A stretch of 22,377 nt of DNA from a virus (IMGVR_UViG_3300030329_001012:1-22377); one strand, 5' to 3'. Shown: positions 1 through 22,158, counted from the stretch's first letter. Numbers and translations are program-made. The notes: generated by a model from the sequence alone, not told the origin.

Positions 1-2076
1 TGGGGTATCTACAACTATGAAAACTCCCGTGATGATGTAGAGTACATTCATTGTATTGATGAACGTCAGATGCTTGAGGAGTTTGTTGCGTTCATGGTTG
101 AAGTTCAACCAGATGTTATCACAGGTTGGAACACAACCTTCTTTGATATTCCATATCTGGCTGTTCGTATTACACGACTGTTCGGTGACAAGATGAGAAA
201 CAATATGTCACCCTGGAACATGGTGTCAGAAGAAAAGACTTCAACCTTTGGTCGTGAACAAATCAAATACAACATTTGGGGTGTGGCCAATCTAGACTAC
301 CTTGACCTGTATCGTAAGTTTACATACAAGAACCAGGAGTCATATCGTCTTGACTACATTGCAGGTGTAGAACTCGGAGCACAGAAGGACGAGAATCCAT
401 ACGAGACATACAAAGAATGGTACACCAACGACTATCAATCGTTCATTGATTACAACATCAAAGACGTGGAGTTGGTTGATGCGTTAGAAGATAAGATGAA
501 ACTTATCGAACTGGCATTGACTATGGCCTATGAGGCAAAGGTGAACTACATGGATGTATTCTCACAGGTTCGTATGTGGGATGTGACCATCTATAACTAT
601 CTGCGTGATAGAGATATCGTGGTACCGCAACGAGACACAAGTTCCAAAGGCTCTCGGTATGAAGGTGCCTATGTCAAAGAACCACAGACTGGTGGCCACA
701 ACTGGGTTATGTCGTTTGACCTCAACAGTCTGTATCCACATTTGATTATGCAGTACAACATATCACCAGAGACTTTGATTGTTCAAAGATTCCCAGAGGC
801 TATCTCTGTCGATAAACTATTGAACCAAGAAGTCCAGACAGAAGTTCTTGGCGACAAACTGACCGTTACACCAAACGCTGCCTGTTTCAGAAAAGACATT
901 CGTGGGTTTCTACCTGACCTTATGGAAACAATGTATGGTGACCGTGTAAAGTTCAAGAAGTATTCTTTGGAAGCAAAACAGCGTTATCAAGACACAAAAG
1001 ATAAAAAATATCTGAACGATATATCTAAATATAACAACATACAGATGGCTAGAAAGATTGCACTAAACAGTGCTTATGGTGCAGTCGGCAATCAGTATTT
1101 TAGATATTACGATGAACGATTGGCCACTGCGATCACAACGGCAGGTCAGTTGAGCATTCGGTGGATTGAGAACAAGGTAAATGAATACCTCAACAGAATA
1201 CTACAGACGAAAGATCAAGACTACATTATCGCGTCAGATACAGATTCCATTTATGTTACTTTTGACACGTTGGTATCTAAGTCTTTTGGAAACAGAGATG
1301 ATGTGCCAACAGAAAAAGTTGTCAACTTCTTGGATCAAATCGCCAAGGATAAAGTTGAACCTTACATTACTAAGTGTTATCAGGACCTTGCAGATTATGT
1401 AAGAGCATACGAGCAGAAGATGGAGATGGCTCGTGAGGTGATTGCTGACAAAGGTATCTGGACTGCAAAGAAAAGATACATTCTCAATGTGTATGACAGT
1501 GAAGGTGTACGGTTCGCAGAACCAGAACTCAAGATCATGGGCATCGAGGCAGTTAAGTCCTCAACACCAGAACCCTGTCGTGATAAGATTAAAGAAGCAT
1601 TGAGAGTTATTATCAACGAAGATGAACAGGCACTAAATAAGTTTATTCAGTCATTCCGCAAAGAGTTTATGAAGATGGACCCAGAACGTATTGCGTTCCC
1701 AAGGTCATGCAACGGACTCAAGAAGTGGGGTGATCGGTCATCGGTCTACAAGAAAGGAACACCGATGCACATCAAAGGTTCGTTGATGTATAATTATCTA
1801 CTCAACAAAGAAAAAGTGACACATAAGTATCCCCTTATCCAAGAAGGTGAGAAGATAAAGTTTATTCAATTAAGAACACCCAACAAAATTCAAACCAATG
1901 TCATTTCGTTCATGGGCCAACTGCCTAGAGAGTTTGACTTGACAGAAGTGGTAGATTATGATATAATGTTTCTAAAGAGTTTTGTTGAACCTATGACATT
2001 TATCCTTGACCAGATTGGCTGGCAAGTCGATAGGTCGTGGGGCACCCAGAGGACACTTGAAGGATTATTCGGATGA
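1..2076 (+). CDS. 43: Family B DNA polymerase, T4 gp43-like (5' end outside window)
   Basis: The reading frame is open from base 1, so the gene starts upstream and about 692 residues are visible, against roughly 900 in T4 gp43. Family B motifs occur in the expected order. Exonuclease motif Exo II (GWNTTFFDIPYL) is near 124-160 and Exo III (YNIKDVEL) near 451-475. Polymerase motif A (SFDLNSLYPH) is near 712-740, motif B (KIALNSAYG) near 1054-1080, motif C (SDTDS) near 1236-1250, and the KKRY element near 1470. Both the proofreading and the polymerase acidic residues are present, so the enzyme should be active in replicating phage DNA. An ATG at 70 lies inside the exonuclease domain and is not the true start. 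The stop codon overlaps the start of the next gene (ATGA). Assignment is very secure; the exact subgroup is not determined. Confidence 0.97.
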   Translation, partial: WGIYNYENSRDDVEYIHCIDERQMLEEFVAFMVEVQPDVITGWNTTFFDIPYLAVRITRLFGDKMRNNMSPWNMVSEEKTSTFGREQIKYNIWGVANLDYLDLYRKFTYKNQESYRLDYIAGVELGAQKDENPYETYKEWYTNDYQSFIDYNIKDVELVDALEDKMKLIELALTMAYEAKVNYMDVFSQVRMWDVTIYNYLRDRDIVVPQRDTSSKGSRYEGAYVKEPQTGGHNWVMSFDLNSLYPHLIMQYNISPETLIVQRFPEAISVDKLLNQEVQTEVLGDKLTVTPNAACFRKDIRGFLPDLMETMYGDRVKFKKYSLEAKQRYQDTKDKKYLNDISKYNNIQMARKIALNSAYGAVGNQYFRYYDERLATAITTAGQLSIRWIENKVNEYLNRILQTKDQDYIIASDTDSIYVTFDTLVSKSFGNRDDVPTEKVVNFLDQIAKDKVEPYITKCYQDLADYVRAYEQKMEMAREVIADKGIWTAKKRYILNVYDSEGVRFAEPELKIMGIEAVKSSTPEPCRDKIKEALRVIINEDEQALNKFIQSFRKEFMKMDPERIAFPRSCNGLKKWGDRSSVYKKGTPMHIKGSLMYNYLLNKEKVTHKYPLIQEGEKIKFIQLRTPNKIQTNVISFMGQLPREFDLTEVVDYDIMFLKSFVEPMTFILDQIGWQVDRSWGTQRTLEGLFG

Positions 2077-3212
2077 AGTACACACCATATTATATGAAAG
2101 ATGTTCGTGCTGGTGAAGCACAAGAGAAGTTCACAGTTATCTCTACCTTTGCAGGTGGAGGCGGTTCGTCTACTGGTTATCGTTTGGCAGGTGGCAAGAT
2201 ACTTGCTATCAACGAGTTTGTAAAAGAGGCAAGAGAAACCTATTCAGCAAACTATCCAACGACACCAATCATACCAGATGACATAAAAGAACTTACTGGT
2301 AAAGACATTCTGGAAGTTGCAGGTATCAGTGAAGGTGAACTTGATCTGTTAGATGGTTCCCCTCCCTGTTCTGCGTTCAGTGTTGCTGGTCGTGGATTTA
2401 CACATCACGGTGGCAGTCACAAGGCCGGGTATGGTAAGAGCAAACACTATTCAGATGAACAGTCAGTATCAAATATTGAGGACTTGTTCTTTGAGTTTAT
2501 TCGTGTTGCCAAAGACATTCAACCCAAGACAATCATTGCAGAGAACGTCAAGGGTCTAACAATTGGTGAGGCGAAGGAATACTTCAATATGATTAACAAT
2601 GCCTTTGATGAACTAGGTTATGATGTATGTGCAAAGGTACTCAATTCCAAACATTACGGCGTCCCACAGGCCCGTGAGCGCACGATCTTTATTGGGGTGA
2701 GGAAAGACTTGACTGCAAAAGTAGGCCTCTCATTTATGAACATATTTACTGTGTTTCCATCTGAGAACCGAGAGTTTGTTTCTCTAGGTGAAGGGTGTGA
2801 GGGTTTGGACTTAGATCAAGAAGAAGTTGCATGGCTCAATGAGAAGTGGTTAAATACAAAGTTTCATCAAGTAACTGGTATTCTATTCCCACAGGATCCA
2901 GAGAAAGTTATCAGTGGAGAAAATGTGGGAAAGAAGAATCTGCATTTCAGTTGTAAGAAAACATCACAGTATATGCCAGCACCGACATTGACAGCAATGG
3001 GTGCAGGATCAACGACTGGTGGATTAGTACATTGGAATGAAGATAGAAAATTTACAATCAAAGAATTGAAACGTATCATGTCTCTGCCTGAAGATTTTGA
3101 ACTTACAGGAACATTTAATCAGAAGGCGGAACGATGTGGTCGTATGGTACCTTCACTTATGATGAAGGCCATAGCAAGTTCAGTGTACGATAAAGTGCTG
3201 AACAAATTATAA
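2073..3212 (+). CDS. DNA cytosine-C5 methyltransferase (orphan)
   Basis: This 379-residue protein carries the C5-cytosine methyltransferase motifs in canonical order. Motif I is TFAGGGG at residues 25-31 (SAM binding). Motif IV is SPPCSAF with the catalytic Cys at residue 99. Motif VI is ENV at 157-159 and motif VIII is QARER at 199-203. A GRMVP segment near the C-terminus stands in for motif X. Residues about 205-330 contain the variable target-recognition region. The start overlaps the polymerase stop by four bases, so the two are probably translationally coupled. No partner restriction enzyme lies beside it, so it is an orphan phage methyltransferase. Its likely role is to protect phage DNA from host restriction or from nucleases made or carried by the phage. 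The target sequence cannot be read from the protein. Confidence 0.94.
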   Translation: MKYTPYYMKDVRAGEAQEKFTVISTFAGGGGSSTGYRLAGGKILAINEFVKEARETYSANYPTTPIIPDDIKELTGKDILEVAGISEGELDLLDGSPPCSAFSVAGRGFTHHGGSHKAGYGKSKHYSDEQSVSNIEDLFFEFIRVAKDIQPKTIIAENVKGLTIGEAKEYFNMINNAFDELGYDVCAKVLNSKHYGVPQARERTIFIGVRKDLTAKVGLSFMNIFTVFPSENREFVSLGEGCEGLDLDQEEVAWLNEKWLNTKFHQVTGILFPQDPEKVISGENVGKKNLHFSCKKTSQYMPAPTLTAMGAGSTTGGLVHWNEDRKFTIKELKRIMSLPEDFELTGTFNQKAERCGRMVPSLMMKAIASSVYDKVLNKL

Positions 3213-5128: not shown

Positions 5129-6434
5129 GGATTTCGCAAGAAAGGCAATCCCATTTATCAAAGACGAGTATTTTCAAGACGGTATTGAGAAAGTTATTTT
5201 TCAAACCATCTTAGACTATACCAATAATTATTCAGTAAATCCTACAATCGAAGCTCTGAGTATTGATGTCCAGAAGAAGTCATTAAACGAAGAACAATTC
5301 AAACAAGCAGTAGGGTATCTGTCAGAGATAGAGAAAACAGATACAGACCTTCAGTGGTTACTCGACCAAACAGAACAGTGGTGTAAAGATAAGGCAATCT
5401 ATAATGCCATCCTTAATGGTATTCATATCATTGAAGGCAAAGATAAAGAACAAACACCAGATGCACTTCCGACTATTCTTTCGGAAGCATTATCAGTTTC
5501 GTTTGATACGAACATCGGTCACGACTATATGGAACAGTCGGAAGACCGATATGAATTCTATCATACGAAAGAAGAAAAGATACCATTTGATTTAGATTTC
5601 TTTAATCGTATCACCAAAGGTGGTATGCCAAACAAAACTCTGAACATTGCACTTGCAGGTACAGGTGTAGGTAAGTCATTGTTTATGTGCCATGTCGCAG
5701 CATCGACTTTGATGCAGGGTAAGAATGTTTTGTATATCACATTAGAGATGGCAGAAGAAAAGATTGCAGAACGCATCGATGCTAATCTGATGAACATCAC
5801 AATGGATGATATGCACGATCTACCAAGGCATATGTACGAGAACAAGTTTGAGAAGATACAAAAGAAAACACAAGGCAAACTGATCGTCAAAGAATACCCA
5901 ACAGCATCTGCACACTGTGGTCATTTTCGATCCTTGTTAAATGAACTCAATTTGAAAAAAGACTTTATGCCAGAAATAGTATTCATTGATTATCTAAACA
6001 TCTGTGCATCAAGTAGGTTTCGTGCAGGAGCAAATGTAAACTCATATACATACATCAAGGCCATCGCAGAAGAACTTAGAGGTCTTGCAGTTGAATATGA
6101 TCTACCTATCGTGTCAGCAACACAGACAACCAGAACTGGGTTTGTATCGACAGACATTGGTCTAGAAGATACATCCGAATCGTTTGGTTTGCCAGCAACA
6201 GCAGACTTTATGTTTGCACTGATATCGTCAGAAGAACTAGAGCAGTTGAATCAGATGTTGGTCAAACAGTTGAAGAACAGATATGCAGACCCAACATCAA
6301 ACAAAAAGTTTATCATTGGTGTAGATAGAGCCAAGATGAAACTGTATGATGTGGCACAAACAGCACAAGAAGATTTGGTAGATACAGGACAAGAGGAAGA
6401 AGCCATTGACCGATTCGCAGACTTCAAAGTTTAG
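5076..6434 (+). CDS. 41: DnaB-family replicative helicase, T4 gp41-like
   Basis: This 452-residue protein matches the T4 gp41/DnaB layout. An N-terminal helical domain (about 1-140) is followed by a RecA-like ATPase with Walker A AGTGVGKS at 194-201 and Walker B IVFIDYLN with Asp at 305. The TLEMAEEKIAERI segment (222-234) matches the conserved DnaB helix after the Walker A strand, and SATQTTR lies downstream in the H3 position. Length is close to T4 gp41 (about 475). It should unwind the fork ahead of the polymerase encoded at the left edge. The start lies within the preceding small gene, with an overlap of about 50 bases. Confidence 0.95.
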   Translation: MTKLRLEQTILSNLIHNEDFARKAIPFIKDEYFQDGIEKVIFQTILDYTNNYSVNPTIEALSIDVQKKSLNEEQFKQAVGYLSEIEKTDTDLQWLLDQTEQWCKDKAIYNAILNGIHIIEGKDKEQTPDALPTILSEALSVSFDTNIGHDYMEQSEDRYEFYHTKEEKIPFDLDFFNRITKGGMPNKTLNIALAGTGVGKSLFMCHVAASTLMQGKNVLYITLEMAEEKIAERIDANLMNITMDDMHDLPRHMYENKFEKIQKKTQGKLIVKEYPTASAHCGHFRSLLNELNLKKDFMPEIVFIDYLNICASSRFRAGANVNSYTYIKAIAEELRGLAVEYDLPIVSATQTTRTGFVSTDIGLEDTSESFGLPATADFMFALISSEELEQLNQMLVKQLKNRYADPTSNKKFIIGVDRAKMKLYDVAQTAQEDLVDTGQEEEAIDRFADFKV

Positions 6435-7236
6435 AGAAATAAAGTATGAAAAATTCTATACTCCCTGGCAAACAGCACACGAACTCTATGATAGAACTCT
6501 ACTCATAGTCGGCAATCTCTTTGATAACTTTGTAGAGCCATCAGCAGGCAGAGGAGCATTTCTTTCTGCCATGCCACCAAACAAAAGAATTGGTATTGAC
6601 ATAGACATGGCCAGTTGGGGCTATGGTAAGATATGCCAAGAGATAGAGATACAAAATTTCTTTGACTTTATTTGGCCTGAAGGTAGAACGATTACAATAG
6701 GTAATCCTCCCTTTGGTCGTCGTGGTAAGTTGGCAATGAAGTTTCTTAACATCAGTGCTGAGAACTCTGATGTTGTTGCGTTCATACTTCCTGCTATCTT
6801 TTCCAAGTTTACCTTTATCAATAGAGTACATCCATACTTCCATTTGATACACGAAACTCCTGTCACAGAGTTTGAGGACAATGTAAAGGTAAAGTGTGTT
6901 TTTCAAATATGGGAAAGACGAGCACATAAACGAGAGAGAATAGTTAGACAGTCATCGTGCGATGAGTTTACTATGACACATCGACACATTTCTCGTACCA
7001 CACCAGAAGAACTAGAACAACTAAAACAAGATAGTACAGTTGCCATACAACAGATTGGTGGTAGAGTGATACCATTAGAAGAAATAAAGAGAGGTAGTAT
7101 TTGGTTTATCAAAGGCGGTGATCCAGAAGCGTTCAAAAGAATAGACTATTCACATCTACATAAACATCATTTAGGTGCCATTTCTTTGACAAAGGCGGAT
7201 ATTGTTGAGGGATATTTGAATACGATAAAGAGATAA
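6406..7236 (+). CDS. Probable N6-adenine DNA methyltransferase
   Basis: This 276-residue protein has a SAM-binding motif I (VEPSAGRGAF, 43-52), an acidic residue pair after the second strand (GIDID, 63-67) and the catalytic NPPFG motif at 100-104. The motif I then NPPF order is that of amino-methyltransferases, most often N6-adenine enzymes, though NPPF alone does not exclude other targets such as tRNA, rRNA or N5-glutamine. The start is a TTG inside the helicase 3' end, preceded by GAGGAAG. The first in-frame ATG falls after motif I, so a non-ATG start is required. The C-terminal third (about 165-276) is unrecognised. With the C5 methyltransferase, the phage may modify its DNA at two bases. 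Confidence 0.82.
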   Translation: MTDSQTSKFREIKYEKFYTPWQTAHELYDRTLLIVGNLFDNFVEPSAGRGAFLSAMPPNKRIGIDIDMASWGYGKICQEIEIQNFFDFIWPEGRTITIGNPPFGRRGKLAMKFLNISAENSDVVAFILPAIFSKFTFINRVHPYFHLIHETPVTEFEDNVKVKCVFQIWERRAHKRERIVRQSSCDEFTMTHRHISRTTPEELEQLKQDSTVAIQQIGGRVIPLEEIKRGSIWFIKGGDPEAFKRIDYSHLHKHHLGAISLTKADIVEGYLNTIKR

Positions 7237-7239
7237 ATA
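7232..7239 (+). promoter_or_regulatory. T4-like late promoter box (GATAAATA)
   Basis: The sequence GATAAATA differs at one base from the T4 late consensus TATAAATA. It overlaps the stop codon of the methyltransferase gene (7234-7236). It sits at the boundary between replication genes and virion genes, where a late promoter is expected. With the T4 spacing (box about -13 to -6), transcription would start at 7245, the first base of the next gene's ATG. A weak AAAGAG at 7227-7232 could serve as ribosome binding site on read-through transcripts. The box is short, so chance occurrence is possible. Confidence 0.5.
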
Positions 7240-7244
7240 GTATT

Positions 7245-7267
7245 ATGAAAACTTTTAAAGAACATCT
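7245..7267 (+). repeat. Direct repeat at the start of paralogous gene 1
   Basis: The first 17 bases of this gene are identical to the first 17 bases of the gene at 8384, and 22 of the first 23 match. Because the encoded MKTFKEHL segment is under selection, this may reflect gene duplication plus constraint rather than an active recombination site. Confidence 0.6.
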
Positions 7268-8375
7268 GCTTCTTGCAGAAGCAAAAAATCGTGGCGAGGA
7301 AATGGAAGATGTTATCATTGCCGCGGCAGAAGGGAAAAAATATAAACCAATCAAAAGAAAAGATAATCAAATTCCCCCTGATGCAGGTAAGAAGATTGTA
7401 AAGAAAATGAAGTACGGGAAGTTTAAAGGAAAACCAGGAGGACAACCAATTTCAAAAGAATGGGCCAAGGCTTTGGAAGATGCTGGTTCAAAAACAGCTG
7501 GACAAAATAAAGAATCTAAAACTGATTTGATTTTTGGTAGAAAAAGAATATCGCTAAAGACTGGTAAGACAGCTTTTATAACCAACTCAAATGCCGTTGA
7601 GGCTAGGGTTATACTATATTTTGCTGCAAAGGGAGCTCGTATTTCTCCTAAACCAGAAGTTAAAAGATTGGCAAACACAGTTAAGAAGATGCATAAGGCA
7701 AAGTTAGATCCAGGCAAATTGCCCCCAAGGTGGAAAGATAAGGATGGTGTATGGCACAAAACCTCTGAGAAACCACCAACAGATTCCACAATTCGGAATA
7801 CAGCAGTTGCAAAAAATTCTGAGATGGGTATTGAAGCACATAAACTTAGAGATAAACTTCAAACTGATATTGACAAATTATTCCAAGGTAATGACCAGTT
7901 TGCTATTGCCTATGTTAAAGAAGGAATGTCTGGAGAAAGAAAATTTGGTAATGGTCCTGGTACTGCTGAATTTTGTTTAGTGACAGATGCCAATGGAGAT
8001 AATCCAGTAGAACATAATATCTTAAAGGATAAATCTTATCTAAAGAAAATTGCTGGTAGAACTAAAATGGTTGTTAGACTTAGAGCCTTTCAACAAGGAA
8101 AGAAAGAAGAAAGACGATTTGCTTGGCATCATATGTGGTTTGCACAAACCAAGTTTGTAAATGAGCAAGTAGAAAAATTAGAAAGGGAATCTCATTTATT
8201 AACTGAAGCAGCTATTATGGATAGAATAAAGAGTATCTATAATAAAGTTGTAAGGTTTTTAGAAAGAGCTCTTGATAAGATGATAGAATTTATCGGTGAT
8301 AGTTGGGAAAGATTTGAGGAGTTTATGGGATTTCGATTCGACGTAGACTTTAATAATGAAATAAGGTTTGACTAA
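7245..8375 (+). CDS. Capsid-targeted protein with PD-(D/E)xK nuclease-like motifs, copy 1
   Basis: This 376-residue protein begins MKTFKEHLLLAEA, which resembles the T4 internal-protein capsid targeting sequence (from memory, MKTYQEFIAE) and ends in an L-A-E site (10-12) suited to prohead protease cleavage. The core holds a helix with acidic residues (EEMEDVIIAAA), then KTDLIFG with D94 and RISLK (102-105). This E...D...(S)xK pattern resembles PD-(D/E)xK nucleases. It is a paralogue of the next gene; both share a later block (EGMSGERKFG and VTDANGD, near 226-252). A second L-T-E site at 319-321 precedes a basic amphipathic tail. The inferred role is a protein packaged in the head and injected with DNA. 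Nuclease activity is inference from motifs only. The DNA looks more AT-rich than copy 2. Confidence 0.75.
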   Translation: MKTFKEHLLLAEAKNRGEEMEDVIIAAAEGKKYKPIKRKDNQIPPDAGKKIVKKMKYGKFKGKPGGQPISKEWAKALEDAGSKTAGQNKESKTDLIFGRKRISLKTGKTAFITNSNAVEARVILYFAAKGARISPKPEVKRLANTVKKMHKAKLDPGKLPPRWKDKDGVWHKTSEKPPTDSTIRNTAVAKNSEMGIEAHKLRDKLQTDIDKLFQGNDQFAIAYVKEGMSGERKFGNGPGTAEFCLVTDANGDNPVEHNILKDKSYLKKIAGRTKMVVRLRAFQQGKKEERRFAWHHMWFAQTKFVNEQVEKLERESHLLTEAAIMDRIKSIYNKVVRFLERALDKMIEFIGDSWERFEEFMGFRFDVDFNNEIRFD

Positions 8376-8383
8376 GGAGTAAT

Positions 8384-8406
8384 ATGAAAACTTTTAAAGA
8401 GCATCT
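8384..8406 (+). repeat. Direct repeat at the start of paralogous gene 2
   Basis: This is the second copy of the repeat at 7245-7267; see that entry. The two copies are 1139 bases apart, the length of one gene unit, which fits tandem gene duplication. Confidence 0.6.
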
Positions 8407-9451
8407 ATTAACTGAGGCCGCAACATCTGCAGCGTTTGAGATGGAAAGTGTCATCGTGGCAGCTGCCGGCGGTCCAGCATATAAACCCAAGGACAAGAAG
8501 ATTGCCCCAGATGCAGGTAAAAAGATTGTCAAGAATTTGAAACTAAAAGGCAAGGGTGCAATGCCCAAGAACGCCTACGATGTCACACCAGAGTGGGCAT
8601 CATACTTCCCCGGTGGTAAAGCACCAGGTGCTACCAAAACTCCTAAGACAGATTTTCTCATTGGTGATAAAAGAATATCACTAAAGACGGGTAGTGGTGC
8701 TCAGTTGATGAGTGGTGGTAAGTCAGAAGCAACAGCAACATTCTATGCTGCAACTAAGGCAGGTAAGATACCTATCAAAGGTGCCATCAAGAAGTTGGAA
8801 AAACATTTCAACTCTATGATGACCACAACAGTTCCTAAAGTTCAAGGCAATGCCGCAGAGTTAGTTAAGAACAGAAAGTCTAAGATCATTAATGAGACTA
8901 ATAAAGTCCATGAAGAATTTAAGAAAGACCTTCGGACTATGTTCTCTAAAGATAAAAACTTTGCTTATCACTTTACCTTTGAGGCCATGACTGGTGTTCA
9001 GAAGTTTGGTCGTAAGGGTGTAGGGGCCGCACAGTATTTTCTAGTCACAGACTGGGCAGGAGACAAGGCAAGTATACACGATGCCTTTAAACAGAAAGGA
9101 TATGTAAAGAAGATTGCAAGTCAGGTAGTTCCCGAAGCAAGATTCAAGTCGGGGTCACAAAAGAAGATGGATCCCAAAACAAGAATCACAAAGAAAACAG
9201 GATTCTATTCTATTTACAGTGCAGTGGGTCTTGGTCTAAAAAATATGCAGGAAGAAATAGAAGCCATCGAAGGCGATCTACTTACAGAGGCAGTTCTAGA
9301 TAAAATTAAAAATGCCTTCAACAAGTTCAAAAACTACATCAAGAAAATGTGGTCAAGGGTTAGAGAGTACATCGGAGATAGTTGGGATAGGCTCATACAG
9401 TTCTTAGAACTAGAAGCAGAAGTAAGTTTCAATAACAACATTAGTTGGTAG
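8384..9451 (+). CDS. Capsid-targeted protein with PD-(D/E)xK nuclease-like motifs, copy 2
   Basis: This 355-residue protein begins MKTFKEHLLTEAA, with a capsid-targeting-like segment and an L-T-E cleavage site at 9-11. It parallels the preceding gene. It has an acidic helix (FEMESVIVAAAGG), APDAGKKIVK, then KTDFLIG with D90 and RISLK (98-101), followed by GAQLMSGGKSEATATFYAA. The D...SLK arrangement with an upstream Glu helix is consistent with a PD-(D/E)xK fold in which Ser replaces the usual acidic residue. A second L-T-E at 300-302 precedes an amphipathic tail containing YIGDSWDRL, matching FIGDSWERF in copy 1. A clear AAGGAG ribosome binding site lies upstream. Similar proteins occur, to my memory, in marine T4-like phages as hypotheticals. 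Confidence 0.76.
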   Translation: MKTFKEHLLTEAATSAAFEMESVIVAAAGGPAYKPKDKKIAPDAGKKIVKNLKLKGKGAMPKNAYDVTPEWASYFPGGKAPGATKTPKTDFLIGDKRISLKTGSGAQLMSGGKSEATATFYAATKAGKIPIKGAIKKLEKHFNSMMTTTVPKVQGNAAELVKNRKSKIINETNKVHEEFKKDLRTMFSKDKNFAYHFTFEAMTGVQKFGRKGVGAAQYFLVTDWAGDKASIHDAFKQKGYVKKIASQVVPEARFKSGSQKKMDPKTRITKKTGFYSIYSAVGLGLKNMQEEIEAIEGDLLTEAVLDKIKNAFNKFKNYIKKMWSRVREYIGDSWDRLIQFLELEAEVSFNNNISW

Positions 9452-9454
9452 ATT

Positions 9455-10693
9455 ATGAACAACTTTGGTCAATTTCTTACCGAAGATAAGAACACACACC
9501 TTGAACATTTGGAAGATGAGATTCTAAATGATGGTGTGACTGGTGGCAAGAACGCCATATCCTTTTTATTGGCTCTAAGTGATATGCTACAGGGTCACAG
9601 TAAGAGTAAAACAAATGTGACCGTGAAGTGGGATGGTGCTCCTGCTATCTTTGCAGGCACGAACCCAGAGAACGGAAAGTTCTTTGTTGGAACGAAAGCA
9701 GTATTCAATAAGATTGGTGGACGAGTAGGACCAAAGATAAACTACACACCAGCAGATATCAGAAAGAATCATGGCGGTGGACTCGCAGACAAACTTTTAG
9801 CTGCTCTAAAATATTTCCCTGCACTAAAGATTCCTGGCATCTGGCAAGGTGATCTACTGTACACACAGGACGATCTAAAGACAGCAGAGGTTGGCGGTGA
9901 TACTTCTGTTATTTTTACACCTAACACAATCACATATGCAGTACCACTGATAGATGAACTTGCTAATACAATTCAAGCAGCAAAGATTGGAGTAGTCTGG
10001 CACACATCATACAGTGGTAAGAAGATGGATTCTCTCAAGGCTAAGTTTGGGGTCAATGCAAGTCAGTTAGCCAAGTCACGAAACGTCTGGTCGATTGATG
10101 CAACCTTTAAAGACACATCGGGTAATGTGAAATTCACTGCTGCCGAAGCTAAACAGTTTCAGAAAGTATTGAACATGGCATCAGGTTCTCTAAAAAGGTC
10201 CTCTAACTACCTACGAATGATGGACAAAGTTACGCACGCTGAGGCCCCATCTAACCTTCTCAAAATATTCCTCAACTCATATATTAGGGGTGGAGAGAAG
10301 ATAGAAAACACAAAGAAAGTGGTAGATTTTTTCGGGAAATACTATGAGGAACGCCTGAATAAGAAGATAAAAAGTGTCAAAAGTGCCGCTGGAAGAGAGA
10401 AGTGGGAACAGATCAAGAAGGATGGACTTTCCGAATATAATAAATACAAGAAAGATTTGTATTATGTTGTTGCAACATACATAACTTTACAAACTGCTAA
10501 GACTCTAATCATCAGAAAGTTAGAGAGGGCAGAGAACATAGGTACATTTATCCAAACTCCCAATGGTTACAGAGTAACAGCACCAGAAGGTTTTGTTGCT
10601 ATTGATCGTATTGGTAAAGCAACAAAACTAGTAGATCGACTTGAGTTTAGTCGTGCTAATTTCCAAGTAGATAAGAATTGGGTCAAAGGATAA
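9455..10693 (+). CDS. Capsid-targeted DUF6267-like protein with KWDG motif
   Basis: This 412-residue protein begins MNNFGQFLTED, again a capsid-targeting-like segment with L-T-E at 8-10. It resembles a conserved marine phage family that I recall as DUF6267. The notable block is VTVKWDGAPAIF (55-66), where K58-W-D60-G61 matches motif I (KxDG) of ATP-dependent DNA and RNA ligases and related covalent nucleotidyltransferases. FFVGTKAVFNK follows, then GIWQGDLLYT (128-137) near the place of motif III and IGVVWHT (178-184) near motif IV, although the motif IV Glu is not evident. It could be an injected ligase-like enzyme or a catalytically altered relative. The C-terminal half is helical and Lys-rich. 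Family membership is likely; enzymatic activity is a hypothesis. Confidence 0.78.
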   Translation: MNNFGQFLTEDKNTHLEHLEDEILNDGVTGGKNAISFLLALSDMLQGHSKSKTNVTVKWDGAPAIFAGTNPENGKFFVGTKAVFNKIGGRVGPKINYTPADIRKNHGGGLADKLLAALKYFPALKIPGIWQGDLLYTQDDLKTAEVGGDTSVIFTPNTITYAVPLIDELANTIQAAKIGVVWHTSYSGKKMDSLKAKFGVNASQLAKSRNVWSIDATFKDTSGNVKFTAAEAKQFQKVLNMASGSLKRSSNYLRMMDKVTHAEAPSNLLKIFLNSYIRGGEKIENTKKVVDFFGKYYEERLNKKIKSVKSAAGREKWEQIKKDGLSEYNKYKKDLYYVVATYITLQTAKTLIIRKLERAENIGTFIQTPNGYRVTAPEGFVAIDRIGKATKLVDRLEFSRANFQVDKNWVKG

Positions 10694-10708: not shown

Positions 10709-10984
10709 ATGGAATGGAGTGGTAGCACAGTAGCTCTTGGAGTGTTTCTAACCACGCAGTTAGGTGCTGCTGTGTGGTGGGCATCAGAAACAGATACCAA
10801 GTTAAATGCTACACAGGATACAGTTACTAAGGTTGTCGAGAACGCAACTGACATTGCAGTAATACAAAACGATGTTATTACCATCAAAGAGATGATGGAA
10901 GAAAATGAAGAACGAGTCGAAGAACTCCGAGAGATGATGCATCAAATTTTATATACTTACCGAAACGCAGCTGAAGTAGAATAA
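10709..10984 (+). CDS. Small membrane protein with cytoplasmic or periplasmic coiled coil
   Basis: This 91-residue protein has one hydrophobic segment at about residues 7-23 followed by a predicted coiled coil rich in Glu, Val and Met (about 32-80). A GGAG sequence at 10697-10700 serves as ribosome binding site. Its stop overlaps the start of the next gene (TAATG). No family is recognised. It resembles in layout the small membrane proteins at 19247 and 19898. Holin-like or virion-associated membrane roles are possible, but the sequence does not decide. Confidence 0.68.
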   Translation: MEWSGSTVALGVFLTTQLGAAVWWASETDTKLNATQDTVTKVVENATDIAVIQNDVITIKEMMEENEERVEELREMMHQILYTYRNAAEVE

Positions 10985-12204
10985 TGGCAAAGACTATATC
11001 ATTTACGTTTGGGAGATTCAATCCACCAACTATCGGTCACGAAAAGTTGATGGATCAAACTCGTAAGGCAAATAGAAACTATCGTATCTATGCGAGTCAG
11101 TCACAGGACTCTAAGAAGAATCCCCTAGACTTCAAAACTAAAACAACCTTTATGAAGGCTATGTTTCCTGTTCATGCAAGAAGCATATCAACAGATAAGG
11201 TTGTAACTCCATTCGACATTCTAACAAACCTTTACAAAGAAAAATATACAGATGTGATTATGGTTGTTGGTTCAGACCGAGTCGAGGAGTTTGAGAAAAA
11301 ATTAACCCCGTATAATGGTAAGAAGGCAAGACACGGATATTTCAAATTCAATTCTATCAAAGTTGTAAGTGCCGGCGAAAGAGATCCAGATGCAGAAGGT
11401 GTATCTGGTATGTCTGCATCTAAGATGAGAAAGGCCGCACAAGACAACGATTATGATTCGTTTGCCAAAGGTCTACCAAGAAAATTCAAACAAGGTAAGA
11501 TGTTATTCAAAACTCTACAGAAGACAATGGGTGTCAAGACTCTAAAAGAATACATTGAAGAATCTAAGGTATCCAGACAAGAATTTCAAAGGAGACTAAA
11601 GAATAAACAAAAAAAGAGAGGTTATCATAAACTTTCACCTCAAGACCCTAAGTCAAAGGTCGTAGTAGGCTATCCAAAAGGAACTTCTATAGGTAAAAGA
11701 AAAGAAACTCAACCCGATATGTCCGATGTCGGTGGCGGTAAAGTGGATGTAAAGGCCTACAGAAAAAAACATGGTATGGGTGAAGAATCCGAGATAGAAG
11801 AAGGTCGTCCCAATCAAGCAGCAAAGTCATTATCTGATCCTAAGTTCAGAGCCAAGACTGAGAAAGATAGAAAGAAGGCATCGAAGAAAGGATACCAGAA
11901 ACATAAAGGTAGAATGTACGAGGATGGAAAGGTAATGACATTCAAACAAGCTCAAGAAAAAGATAAGAAGGACCAGAACAAAGACCCTGTTGGTCCTCAA
12001 CACGAAGGTATCCTAGATACTTTATTCCCTAAACAACTATCCGCAGCACAGAAAAGAATCTACAAAAAAGAATATGCTGCCGCATCTAGACTGTATCAAC
12101 AGTTAATTAAGCGTGGTGATAAACCTGCTGTGGCACTACATAAGGCGGCTAGTTCAGTCAAACACGTCACGGATCGTGGCCTCCAACAGTATTTAAAAGT
12201 ATAA
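10984..12204 (+). CDS. NMN-adenylyltransferase-like nucleotidyltransferase with long basic tail
   Basis: Residues 1-160 of this 406-residue protein form a HIGH-superfamily nucleotidyltransferase. GRFNPPTIGH (10-19) is the nucleotide-binding motif, with Thr in place of the first His of HxGH. VVGSDR (94-99) and SASKMR (144-149) match the later conserved motifs. The closest relatives by pattern are NMN/nicotinate and cytidylyl transferases. At 184-193 an internal VKTLKEYIEE resembles a capsid targeting sequence and offers I-E-E as a cleavage site. It sits just after an in-frame ATG at 11527. The remaining 210 residues are Lys-rich low-complexity (about 200-335) and end in a compact helical segment (KQLSAAQKRIY onward). 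The order suggests an enzyme fused to an internal virion protein. The upstream stop overlaps its ATG. Confidence 0.82.
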   Translation: MAKTISFTFGRFNPPTIGHEKLMDQTRKANRNYRIYASQSQDSKKNPLDFKTKTTFMKAMFPVHARSISTDKVVTPFDILTNLYKEKYTDVIMVVGSDRVEEFEKKLTPYNGKKARHGYFKFNSIKVVSAGERDPDAEGVSGMSASKMRKAAQDNDYDSFAKGLPRKFKQGKMLFKTLQKTMGVKTLKEYIEESKVSRQEFQRRLKNKQKKRGYHKLSPQDPKSKVVVGYPKGTSIGKRKETQPDMSDVGGGKVDVKAYRKKHGMGEESEIEEGRPNQAAKSLSDPKFRAKTEKDRKKASKKGYQKHKGRMYEDGKVMTFKQAQEKDKKDQNKDPVGPQHEGILDTLFPKQLSAAQKRIYKKEYAAASRLYQQLIKRGDKPAVALHKAASSVKHVTDRGLQQYLKV

Positions 12205-13868: not shown

Positions 13869-14288
13869 ATGAAATCCTACAAACAGTTTGTGTCAGAGGA
13901 TGCCCCAGGATCAAAGGTCGGAAATTCTATTTCTGTAAACCAGACTGGTGGTAGTGACCCCTATGACATTCAGAACGATGACGTACTCAAAAGAGTAAAT
14001 GCTTTCGTCGGTTCTATTGCAGACCGAGAGTATCTTATTCCTGAGAATGCCGTACATCAACTACAGGGATTCTTGGAGAGAATCGGACTATGCTTTGATA
14101 TGCCCGAAGAACTCCCAGAGTCAGGTAATGTCAGTCTACCATTGAAAAGATATGGTGGCGTTTTTGGTAAGGGTACAGATACACCCTTTGATGAGTTTGA
14201 TCGTGAGGAAGGCATTGATAAGAGTTTGAATATTCAAATTGAAGGACTAAGAAATAACTCTTTTAAGGTATATGCTAAGATAGCATAA
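13869..14288 (+). CDS. Capsid-targeted small virion protein, unknown function
   Basis: This 139-residue protein begins MKSYKQFVSEDAPG, which closely parallels the capsid-targeting-like starts at 7245, 8384 and 9455. A V-S-E site at residues 8-10 is a plausible prohead protease cleavage point, although Val in place of Leu or Ile is weaker. The SVNQTGGSDPYDIQNDDVLKR stretch near 25-45 and LPLKRYGGVFG near 90-100 look like folded, conserved segments. I infer a small internal head protein. The next gene starts directly after the stop codon. Confidence 0.7.
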   Translation: MKSYKQFVSEDAPGSKVGNSISVNQTGGSDPYDIQNDDVLKRVNAFVGSIADREYLIPENAVHQLQGFLERIGLCFDMPEELPESGNVSLPLKRYGGVFGKGTDTPFDEFDREEGIDKSLNIQIEGLRNNSFKVYAKIA

Positions 14289-20176: not shown

Positions 20177-20687
20177 AGATTTGTGGTTTGCTGCCATTGG
20201 TGGTGGTGGAATCATTGCATTGTTCATTGGTCTTATGTTCTTTGCTGCAATAAGAGCAACTGCCTCCGAACTTGTACATGAGTTTCATAGTCCATCATTC
20301 AGCGGCATCGGTTGGAGTACGCATATGCTTTCTATTGAACAACTACAACACAATAGAAAAGAAGATATGCGAGAACGAGCAGAGGCCCAAGAAAGAAAAG
20401 AAGAACGTGAAGAAAACAACACGACCATTAATAAGTTTATCAAGAACGTAGAGAGCCGTATCTATGCTAACTTATCAAAACAGTTAGTGGATAATATGTT
20501 TGCCACACCAGATGAAGATTGCGAAGGTGATGAGTGTGATGTTCCACTGACAGGTACGGCAGATGTTGATGGTTCTATTTTAGTATGGACTAAAGACCCT
20601 GATATGGGAACGATTACTTTGGTCATAACAGGAGAAGATGGTACGACAACTACAATGACTGTGCCAGTAGGAGACTTTGGATTTTGA
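20145..20687 (+). CDS. csgF: CsgF-like curli assembly protein
   Basis: This 180-residue protein has an N-terminal hydrophobic segment (13-36) ending in AIRATA-S, a likely signal peptidase site. The new N-terminus, ELVHEFHSPSFSGIG, aligns with the start of mature E. coli CsgF (TFQFRNPNFGGNP), the part that inserts into the CsgG channel. NKFIKNVESRIYANL (96-110) aligns with the CsgF helix DNFTQAIQSQILGGL. The end, GSILVWTKDPDMGTITLVITG then TTTTMTVPV (143-175), aligns with the C-terminal strands. A charged linker (69-92) is longer than in CsgF. CsgF couples the secretion channel to surface fibre nucleation. It precedes a csgG gene, which strongly supports the assignment. Confidence 0.85.
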   Translation: MAKVQKNWTTRDLWFAAIGGGGIIALFIGLMFFAAIRATASELVHEFHSPSFSGIGWSTHMLSIEQLQHNRKEDMRERAEAQERKEEREENNTTINKFIKNVESRIYANLSKQLVDNMFATPDEDCEGDECDVPLTGTADVDGSILVWTKDPDMGTITLVITGEDGTTTTMTVPVGDFGF

Positions 20688-21478
20688 AAAAGATATTATT
20701 ACTGTTGAGTGTTATACTGATTGCTGGTTGTTCAACTAGTAGTAAGCTTATTCTACATGGGTCATTGCCCTATGCAGAAGGAACTCCTACTACTGAGTTG
20801 CTAATGTCAGTTCCAGAGTTAGACCAACCAGTGATAACAATAGCGGTGTATAACTTTCCAGACAGAACAGGACAAAGAAAACCATCAACAAGATTTTCAC
20901 AACTATCAACTGCCGTATCACAGGCACCAGAAACATATCTCATAGATGCGTTGAAGTGTGTCGGTAAAGGCAAATGGTTTACAGTAGTAGAGAGACAAGG
21001 ACTAGACAGTTTAATAAAAGAGAGACAACTAATACGATCAACAAGAGAACAATACGATGGAGATACGAAGTCCGTTTTAAAACCATTACTCTTTGCAGGA
21101 CTTTTAGTAGAAGGTGGAATCGTAAGTTATGATTCCAATGTGATGAGTGGTGGAGAAGGTGCAAGATACTTTGGCATAGGTGCTCATAGAAAGTACCGAA
21201 CAGATCAAGTCACAGTATCATTGCGTATAGTTGCTGTTCAAACAGGTGAGATACTTTTATCAGTATCATCAACTAAAACAATTGCCAGTCAGAAGATAGG
21301 CGGCGATGCCTTTAAGTTTCTAGATTTAGGAACAAAGGCCTTGGAAATAGAAGTAGGTGTAGCTAGAAACGAACCCACTAACTACGCTATCAGAACAGCA
21401 ATAGAGTATAGTGTATTACAGATGATAGAGAAAGGTGAGGCGAAGGGTTTATGGAAATATAAGAAGGAGGTACAATGA
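20684..21478 (+). CDS. csgG: CsgG-like outer-membrane curli secretion channel lipoprotein
   Basis: Translation starts at a TTG overlapping the csgF stop, after AGGAG. The signal peptide ends in lipobox IAGC with Cys 16. The CsgG family signature is strong: ITIAVYNFPDRTGQRKPS (51-68), WFTVVERQGLDSLIKERQLIR (98-118), EGGIVSYDSNVMSGGEGARYFGIG (143-166) and VSLRIVAVQTGEIL (178-191), plus RNEPTNYAIRTAIEY and GLWKY near the end. E. coli CsgG is a nonameric channel that exports curlin. Here the pore-eyelet region reads KPSTRFSQLSTAV (66-78) where E. coli has KPYPASNFSTAV. Length (264) is close to E. coli (277). Assignment is very secure. Confidence 0.93.
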   Translation: MKKILLLLSVILIAGCSTSSKLILHGSLPYAEGTPTTELLMSVPELDQPVITIAVYNFPDRTGQRKPSTRFSQLSTAVSQAPETYLIDALKCVGKGKWFTVVERQGLDSLIKERQLIRSTREQYDGDTKSVLKPLLFAGLLVEGGIVSYDSNVMSGGEGARYFGIGAHRKYRTDQVTVSLRIVAVQTGEILLSVSSTKTIASQKIGGDAFKFLDLGTKALEIEVGVARNEPTNYAIRTAIEYSVLQMIEKGEAKGLWKYKKEVQ

Positions 21479-22158
21479 AAAGGTTATTCTTAGGAATAAT
21501 GATGTTAATGATGATGTCATTTGCTCATGCGAATGATATTTATGTAACACAATCGGGTGCATCTTTAGAGTTGAACATCAAACAAGATGGCACAGACAAC
21601 AAGGTAGGTAACTCTACCACAGCATCAACGGTTACTGGCGCAACAAGTGATATTGATATTGATCAGATAGGTAATACAAACGTATTGACCTTTGATGTCA
21701 ATGGTGCAAGTTTTACTGGTAAGTTTGACGTAACTGGTAATAGTAACAACATTGACTTCAACTGTGATAGTGATGGTTCAGGTTCGTCTTGTGCTACAGC
21801 AACAGCAACTATTGTTTGGATAGGTAGTTCAAACGATATTGATATTGATATCGGTGAAGATGCCGATGCTGCAACTGCGACAGTATCTATTACAGGTGCT
21901 TCAGGTAGTGACAGTAACGTGATTGCTGGTACGATAGATGGTAAGTCTGCTATTCTAACACTAACGGTGAATGGTGATACCAACAACTACTTGATTGATA
22001 TAAATGGAGACGGCGATTCCGCAGGTCATACTTATATCCATACACACGTTGGAAGTATTGCTGATGTTGATGTAACACAGTCGGGTGTCTATGATAACAT
22101 GGTGACACTATCAACAAGTGGAGACAATCACGATATAGATATCAGTCAAACAGACTAA
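21475..22158 (+). CDS. Secreted curlin-like repeat protein, candidate CsgG substrate
   Basis: This 227-residue protein has a signal peptide (1-19, cut after AHA) and a repetitive, Asp/Asn/Gly/Thr-rich body with curlin-like elements: TQSGASLELNIKQDGTDN (25-42), IDIDQIGNTN (60-69), WIGSSNDIDIDIG (115-127) and TQSGVYDN (201-208). The Q-x-G-x-x-N spacing resembles curlin repeats, but the repeats are irregular and highly acidic. DINGDGD (175-181) matches a DxNxDG calcium loop. Two Cys (97, 106) could form a disulphide. A strong AAGGAGG site precedes it, implying high expression. The position directly after csgG, as in curli loci, supports it as the exported subunit. A beta-solenoid virion or adhesin protein remains possible. 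Confidence 0.78.
   Translation: MKRLFLGIMMLMMMSFAHANDIYVTQSGASLELNIKQDGTDNKVGNSTTASTVTGATSDIDIDQIGNTNVLTFDVNGASFTGKFDVTGNSNNIDFNCDSDGSGSSCATATATIVWIGSSNDIDIDIGEDADAATATVSITGASGSDSNVIAGTIDGKSAILTLTVNGDTNNYLIDINGDGDSAGHTYIHTHVGSIADVDVTQSGVYDNMVTLSTSGDNHDIDISQTD

Follow-up and report, generated by a model that had tools for sequence, protein, structure and literature searches.

What are two adjacent and related genes of no recognized family doing in the replication region of a marine T4-like phage, and do they act together with the DNA methyltransferases encoded close by? The question is raised by a stretch of viral DNA (IMGVR_UViG_3300030329_001012:1-22377), the whole of which, 22,377 nucleotides, was analysed and is referred to here as the window. 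It is a portion of a T4-like phage DNA-replication cluster and carries, in order, DNA polymerase, a C5 methyltransferase, UvsX, a 2OG oxygenase, a DnaB-type helicase, an N6-type methyltransferase, the two genes in question (A and B), DUF6267 and a cytidylyltransferase. The closest annotated relatives of the window belong to the Kyanoviridae: Pelagibacter phage HTVC008M and the Methylophilales phages Melnitz. The window also has, at 20684-22158, a CsgG-like gene for curli secretion (PF03783, E 7e-54), and a curlin-repeat protein is encoded after it, an arrangement reported from pelagimyophages (PMC7029224). An initial annotation had described A and B as tandem paralogues and, more speculatively, as injected nucleases that work with the two phage methyltransferases. 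The first of these statements holds, as both open reading frames are intact and the products share 34% identity (E 4e-60). The genes that matter for the question are the following:

2073..3212, plus strand: C5-cytosine DNA methyltransferase (PF00145, E 8e-56; TIGR00675 above cut-off)
6406..7236, plus strand: N6-adenine-type DNA methyltransferase with an NPPF motif, directly upstream of A (PADLOC type II methyltransferase, E 8e-21; phrog_799, E 1e-13)
7245..8375, plus strand: gene A, predicted restriction-like nuclease paralogue, 376 aa, intact open reading frame
8384..9451, plus strand: gene B, predicted head-targeted PD-(D/E)xK-type nuclease, 355 aa, intact open reading frame with orthologues in 99 loci
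8420..9250, plus strand: predicted nuclease domain of B, residues about 13-289, from the AlphaFold model and structural matches

Neither A nor B has a family match in Pfam, PHROGs, NCBIfam, PADLOC or the PDB sequences and profiles. Pfam gave nothing near its cut-off for A, B and 15 further family members, and the sole PHROG match for the pair, to a tape-measure protein, was disregarded as weak. B is nevertheless a member of a family, previously undescribed, that occurs in T4-like marine phages and includes proteins of HTVC008M and Melnitz. Direct searching recovered orthologues from 21 contigs, and with the alignment as query 99 matches were obtained in 100 loci, one per locus; the figure of 99 refers to loci and not to phages, some loci being overlapping copies of one contig. 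Reduction at 88% identity left 41 members, and the nonredundant alignment used below contains 39 sequences, A included. No bacterial relatives were confirmed in the genome contigs searched. Orthologues of A were not found in the sequence data searched, where A was seen in the window only, and none of the 99 loci carries two copies, so that the tandem state is private to the window in these data. In the tree A forms a long branch (1.77 changes per column) that attaches basally to the B clade with support of 91/84, and a loop that reads QLMSG almost invariantly elsewhere in the family reads FITNS in A. Judged from these sequences, A is likely to be a diverged copy.

To address the nature of the protein we turned to structure prediction, which the initial annotation had proposed for both paralogues and which was run on B. 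The AlphaFold model, based on the 39 sequences (pLDDT 84.3, pTM 0.73), has the fold of a restriction enzyme, with an invariant set of active-site residues. The result that would have contradicted the initial annotation, a fold lacking a nuclease active site, was not obtained. When the PDB was searched with Foldseek, MspI was the only match below 1e-3 (8e-4), and VIA-align placed HinP1I (Z 11.0), MspI (10.1), HinP1I again (9.3) and the HhaI restriction enzyme (7.3) above the next score of 3.4; rows further down include RecE (3.3) and Hjc (3.1), which are likewise PD-(D/E)xK proteins. Among predicted viral structures (BFVD), the best matches were uncharacterised cyanophage proteins from S-RIM50 (E 9e-9) and S-IOM18 (E 7e-8). 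Both methyltransferases claimed for the window were borne out, C5 by PF00145 and N6-type by PADLOC and phrog_799. The accompanying remark that they have no adjacent restriction enzyme needs revising, since A and B are themselves predicted to have a restriction-enzyme fold.

The residues singled out earlier, D94 and K105 in A and D90 and K101 in B, are correctly placed within the motif KTD-x(8)-S-x-K. In B numbering, the positions invariant in 39/39 sequences are E11, E21, K88, D90, S99, K101, E115, A123, E200, G204, K207, F208 and L220. Because K88 and D90 lay in the search pattern that fetched L026-L100, and MKTFKEHL in the direct-search pattern, each of these features was judged on sequences obtained by other routes; K88, D90 and the N-terminal tag also hold in such relatives, including those found by tblastn in HTVC008M and Melnitz. 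S99, K101, E115 and E21 were absent from every fetching pattern. In the model D90 and K101 map to neighbouring strands (91-93 and 96-102), and E21 sits in the first helix. The acidic residue expected two positions before the catalytic lysine is a serine (S99) in all members, and it is by analogy with permuted enzymes (PMC6344858) that the invariant E115 and E21 could supply a third acidic residue. The predicted active site of B thus comprises E21, D90, S99-x-K101 and E115, and A retains the presumed catalytic set (E21, D94, S103, K105 and E119). We consider it very probable that the B family has a nuclease fold with an invariant site.

A nuclease fold might in principle serve a DNA-binding internal protein that does not cut, comparable to the anti-restriction or DNA-condensing internal proteins (IPs) of T4, and A in particular may be inactive, given that it lacks the QLMSG loop and lies on a long branch. 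The T4 proteins are basic and injected, several of them being inhibitors of type IV restriction enzymes (PMC12373910). The presumed catalytic residues are however invariant in all 39 sequences, A included, and if the host is SAR11 there would be small need for anti-restriction, a restriction-modification system having been reported in only one of >100 SAR11 genomes (PMC7029224). We therefore regard a non-cutting protein as quite improbable.

Capsid-targeting starts had also been claimed for both paralogues. The wider family supports this: a strict regular expression for the capsid-targeting sequence (CTS) fits 28/39 members vs 4/198 N-termini of HTVC008M, and among these four the B orthologue is the most convincing by eye. 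The predicted elements at the ends of the two proteins are as follows, a slash marking the cut:

7245..7280, plus strand: capsid-targeting peptide of A, MKTFKEHLLLAE, with a predicted prohead-protease cut after E12 (L-A-E/A) by the T4 rule
8199..8372, plus strand: second cleavage site of A, L319-T-E321/A, and C-terminal amphipathic helical tail, predicted from sequence
8384..8416, plus strand: capsid-targeting peptide of B, MKTFKEHLLTE, with a predicted cut after E11, a column invariant in 39/39
9281..9448, plus strand: predicted second cleavage site of B, L300-T-E302/A (E302 in 38/39), and detachable C-terminal helical tail, residues 303-355

Each protein contains exactly two LxE[AGS] sites, at 10-13 and 319-322 in A and at 9-12 and 300-303 in B, and the residue that follows E11 is A, G or S in 33/39 family members. 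In the B model a low-confidence internal linker (290-301) ends at the C-terminal site and is followed by helices at 302-330 and 334-341. In T4, targeting is conferred by the first ~10 residues of IPIII, gp21 cleaves after L/I-x-E, Alt is cleaved at both ends and CTS-tagged proteins are ejected into the host; in addition, when EcoRI and staphylococcal nuclease were fused to IPIII or its CTS, the fusion proteins were taken up into the head and transferred to cells (PMC9026906). Genes for gp55 and gp21 are present in HTVC008M. Elsewhere in the window, a small open reading frame at 13869-14288, with the start MKSYKQFVSED and no Pfam match, may encode a further capsid-targeted protein.

Additional information on the two ends comes from S-IOM18 and its relatives (10 Synechococcus phage records). 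The S-IOM18 homologue SWYG_00149 (L107:5099-5926; the same phage and length as the fold match at E 7e-8) possesses the B nuclease domain, scoring 41.7 bits against the B profile, and occupies the same slot upstream of DUF6267. Unlike B, it has no capsid-targeting start and no C-terminal tail but begins at the first helix, which marks both ends of B as separable delivery parts. Cytidylyltransferase relatives have been detected in cyanophage virions (PMC9146016; PMC9602691), and a gene of this type also lies in the window:

10984..12204, plus strand: cytidylyltransferase/NMNAT-like protein, of a type whose cyanophage relatives are contained in virions

The virion table of S-SZBM1 (PMC9146016) lists the cytidylyltransferase and gene 139, and does not list the nuclease-slot gene 142 or DUF6267. 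Overall, the sequences make it likely that A and B are packaged in the head and processed by proteolysis.

Proteins destined for the prohead would be expected to be made late, and a suitable element precedes A:

7232..7239, plus strand: T4-type late-promoter-like element GATAAATA, whose TAAATA core starts 11 nt before the A start codon

A TAAATA core lies <=45 nt upstream of 29/41 family genes, many at exactly -11, vs 31/183 HTVC008M genes (Fisher p 5e-11, a value that ignores the relatedness of the sequences). In the window there is no TAAATA core before B, and A and B therefore probably share the promoter. HTVC008M is not among the phages of a published pelagiphage transcriptome. Late expression of the family genes is what the promoter core would suggest. 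It would also suit a nuclease that acts in the producing cell, where, present late in the prohead core, it might trim, debranch or clear DNA in packaging or degrade leftover host DNA, and one could add that the genes neighbour helicase, UvsX and polymerase within the replication cluster and adjoin the ligase-like DUF6267. T4-like phages already possess gp17 and other packaging nucleases, which counts against such a role. The capsid-targeting peptide and cleavage site, furthermore, put the protein inside the head, and T4 proteins so tagged are ejected (PMC9026906). A function confined to the producing cell thus appears unlikely, and ejection of A and B with the genome seems to us rather likely, if somewhat less so than their packaging.

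The position of B deserves attention in its own right, because what lies between helicase and DUF6267 varies: the interval may hold B alone, B with one extra open reading frame, or a methyltransferase before B. Several families are represented among the extra frames, marked by a D...SxK or ExK pattern, and in five cyanophages (S-SZBM1, S-CAM9, S-IOM18, S-RIM8 and Syn9) the gene directly upstream of DUF6267 has a pattern of this type. Some slot genes match the PADLOC profile PDLC03459 (REase_II), with E values of 4e-14 (L052), 3e-13 (L020) and 8e-10 (S-CAM9):

L052:2888-3685, beside B
L020 3370-4386
S-CAM9, L102:5255-5995

These proteins are encoded beside B or upstream of DUF6267 and, like B, show a KxD...SxK pattern; a profile comparison with B brings this motif into register (E 0.0024, probability 12%). 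They differ in being a separate sequence family, and the S-CAM9 and L052 copies have no capsid-targeting start. phrog_3060 and phrog_1462 were considered as B homologues and rejected: they have only the D...SLK pattern in common with B and profile comparison gave no homology, so they are restriction-like by motif only. The slot frames of L060 and L068 are GIY-YIG-like by motif. Beside B, L048:7292-8056 and L071:5117-5788 are PAP2-phosphatase-like (SYPSGH-type motif by eye) and have capsid-targeting-like starts. We conclude that the slot upstream of DUF6267, to judge by these motifs and profiles, houses interchangeable restriction-like families. Such turnover raises the possibility of a hot spot for invading nuclease genes, A and B being homing-type or other selfish endonuclease cassettes, and both the many unrelated nuclease-like families, GIY-YIG-like ones among them, and the private insertion of A beside B would fit. 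B, however, has stayed in place over deep divergence with its head-targeting ends and promoter core kept, neither of which homing enzymes need, and of the explanations considered here we find this the hardest to credit.

DUF6267 itself, a Pfam family of unknown function matched in 467 phage records, proved informative:

9455..10693, plus strand: DUF6267, predicted covalent nucleotidyltransferase (ligase-like), with the start MNNFGQFLTE/D (PF19782, E 3e-123)

In 26 sequences the full motif set of a covalent nucleotidyltransferase is invariant: K58, D60 and G61 (KxDG), Q131-G132-D133 (QGD), E378, G379 and V381 (EGxV) and K391. The model (pLDDT 75.6) finds mostly RNA and DNA ligases among its best matches, at Z <=6.6 and with no Foldseek E below 0.001. 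A CTS-like start, mostly with D after LxE, is present in 20/26 sequences; pelagiphage-type members have it. DUF6267 therefore looks like a capsid-targeted ligase-type enzyme, and the family gains a ligase-type prediction that can be tested. Given the ligase motifs, the weak ligase fold and the CTS-like start, we suspect that the nuclease and DUF6267 travel together in the head. A further step would be to see a natural head-delivered DNA-processing module of marine T4-like phages, in which a restriction-type nuclease with detachable tags on its two ends, drawn from interchangeable families of this one slot, is co-packaged with DUF6267. If true, DNA of the host or of a competitor would be cut by the module, and phage DNA sealed or protected as it enters; we put this forward tentatively, as a rather doubtful proposal.

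Next, we consider whether A and B are functionally tied to the methyltransferases. In a packaged restriction-modification pair, the C5 and N6 enzymes of the window would mark phage DNA at the A/B cut sites and the injected nucleases would destroy unmarked DNA. The HinP1I/MspI/HhaI-like fold of B and the presence of both enzymes in the window speak for this, as do the unrelated methyltransferases that other clades carry immediately before B and the type II restriction enzyme-matching slot family beside B in L052. An N6-type methyltransferase beside B recurs in L030, and a TSPPY-type enzyme (PF01555-like) precedes B in the L051/L060 groups. The example at L051:4419-5705, directly upstream of B, matches PF01555 at E 4e-5, below cut-off; others occur in L053, L054, L056, L059, L060 and elsewhere. 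Melnitz (HhaI-like) and the L016 record have the C5 family, PF01555 is confined to the L042 record and PF02086 to the L048 record, and the N6 family phrog_5172 occurs in 0/13 records. Searches with PF00145, PF01555, PF02086 and phrog_5172 gave no match in complete HTVC008M (147 kb) or in two B-type records of ~146-147 kb. B-carrying phages hence often, but not always, carry some DNA methyltransferase. Since B-type genes occur in genomes without the methyltransferase families searched, and the methyltransferase type switches while B stays unchanged, the link is weak; no stable linkage of B to a cognate enzyme emerged among these families. A packaged pair of this kind is in our judgement improbable, and a working partnership of A and B with the window's own two enzymes is likewise to be doubted. 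Of the combined proposal in the initial annotation, the nuclease fold and the head-packaging signals were upheld, whereas the methyltransferase link found no support as a general rule; the recurrent upstream methyltransferases and the HhaI-like enzyme of Melnitz speak for a looser tie. If the host is SAR11, the reported scarcity of restriction-modification systems in that group means that the methyltransferases are less obviously there to counter host restriction.

HTVC008M (L103-L105), a phage that lacks the methyltransferase families searched, displays very strong avoidance of several palindromes, with observed vs expected counts of 2 vs 121 for TCGA, 1 vs 68 for CGCG, 83 vs 405 for GATC and 0 vs 40 for AGTACT. 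We considered this as a hint of the B cut site and rejected it, since many palindromes are avoided and the avoidance is not attributable to B.

The fold, the invariant residues, the tags, the promoter core and the untagged S-IOM18 homologue, taken together, give good support to a virion-packaged and probably injected nuclease. From the computed features, synteny among them, we infer a course of events that runs from packaging and injection to cutting, target and self-protection. A and B would serve a marine T4-like phage as internal proteins of the head, produced late and drawn into the prohead core via the N-terminal capsid-targeting peptide. The prohead protease would trim both ends, A after E12 and E321 and B after E11 and E302, and both proteins would enter the next cell along with the ejected genome. 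Trimming would release a domain of about 290-310 residues, predicted to be a metal-dependent PD-(D/E)xK DNA endonuclease whose most likely substrate is unprotected DNA present in a newly infected cell, whether chromosomal, plasmid-borne or belonging to a rival phage. Where a methyltransferase is present, methylation would protect the phage's own DNA; elsewhere, avoidance of sites or a low copy number would do so. B would be the standing copy and A an extra, fast-evolving one in which the catalytic set is intact and the loop has changed, probably with a different target. That A and B are late-made, head-packaged and injected PD-(D/E)xK endonucleases is the reading that we favour and think reasonably likely; an attack on host or rival DNA is plausible, at slightly under an even chance.

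To our knowledge, T4 has delivered a restriction enzyme through its head only where this was engineered. Nature appears to use head delivery of a restriction-type nuclease too, in phages related to isolates infecting SAR11 and OM43, which would point to how marine T4-like phages attack host or rival DNA. SAR11 and OM43 are abundant ocean bacteria, and the cultured pair HTVC008M/HTCC1062 makes head delivery testable. The hypothetical proteins of 99 loci would gain a function.

Among known systems, HinP1I, MspI and HhaI are the nearest to B in the predicted structure, with a common overall fold across 173-199 residues in the alignments (Z 7.3-11.0), the catalytic D and K on adjacent strands and a glutamate in the first helix. 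By contrast, B has no detectable sequence similarity to them and S-x-K replaces (D/E)-x-K; it is a phage late gene, as far as its promoter core indicates, with head-targeting ends and no fixed methyltransferase partner. On the model, B resembles these enzymes by fold and is not a member of their group by sequence profile. The CCGG family (Cfr10I, NgoMIV and Bse634I) has the same order of residues as E21, D90, K101 and E115 in B, a resemblance in order only; in the permuted PD...K...D/E site of NgoMIV, E70 of the first helix, D140, the K and E201 take part (PMC6344858). These enzymes are not among the structural matches listed for B, an absence that proves nothing. With IPI, IPII, IPIII and Alt of T4, A and B have in common an N-terminal targeting peptide with L/I-x-E cleavage, and Alt has a further cut close to the C terminus. 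One known T4 member is a mono-ADP-ribosyltransferase and the others are small basic or anti-restriction proteins; a restriction-like nuclease is not among them, and whereas nuclease delivery in T4 came about only by engineering, through EcoRI and staphylococcal nuclease fusions, A and B would appear to be natural counterparts.
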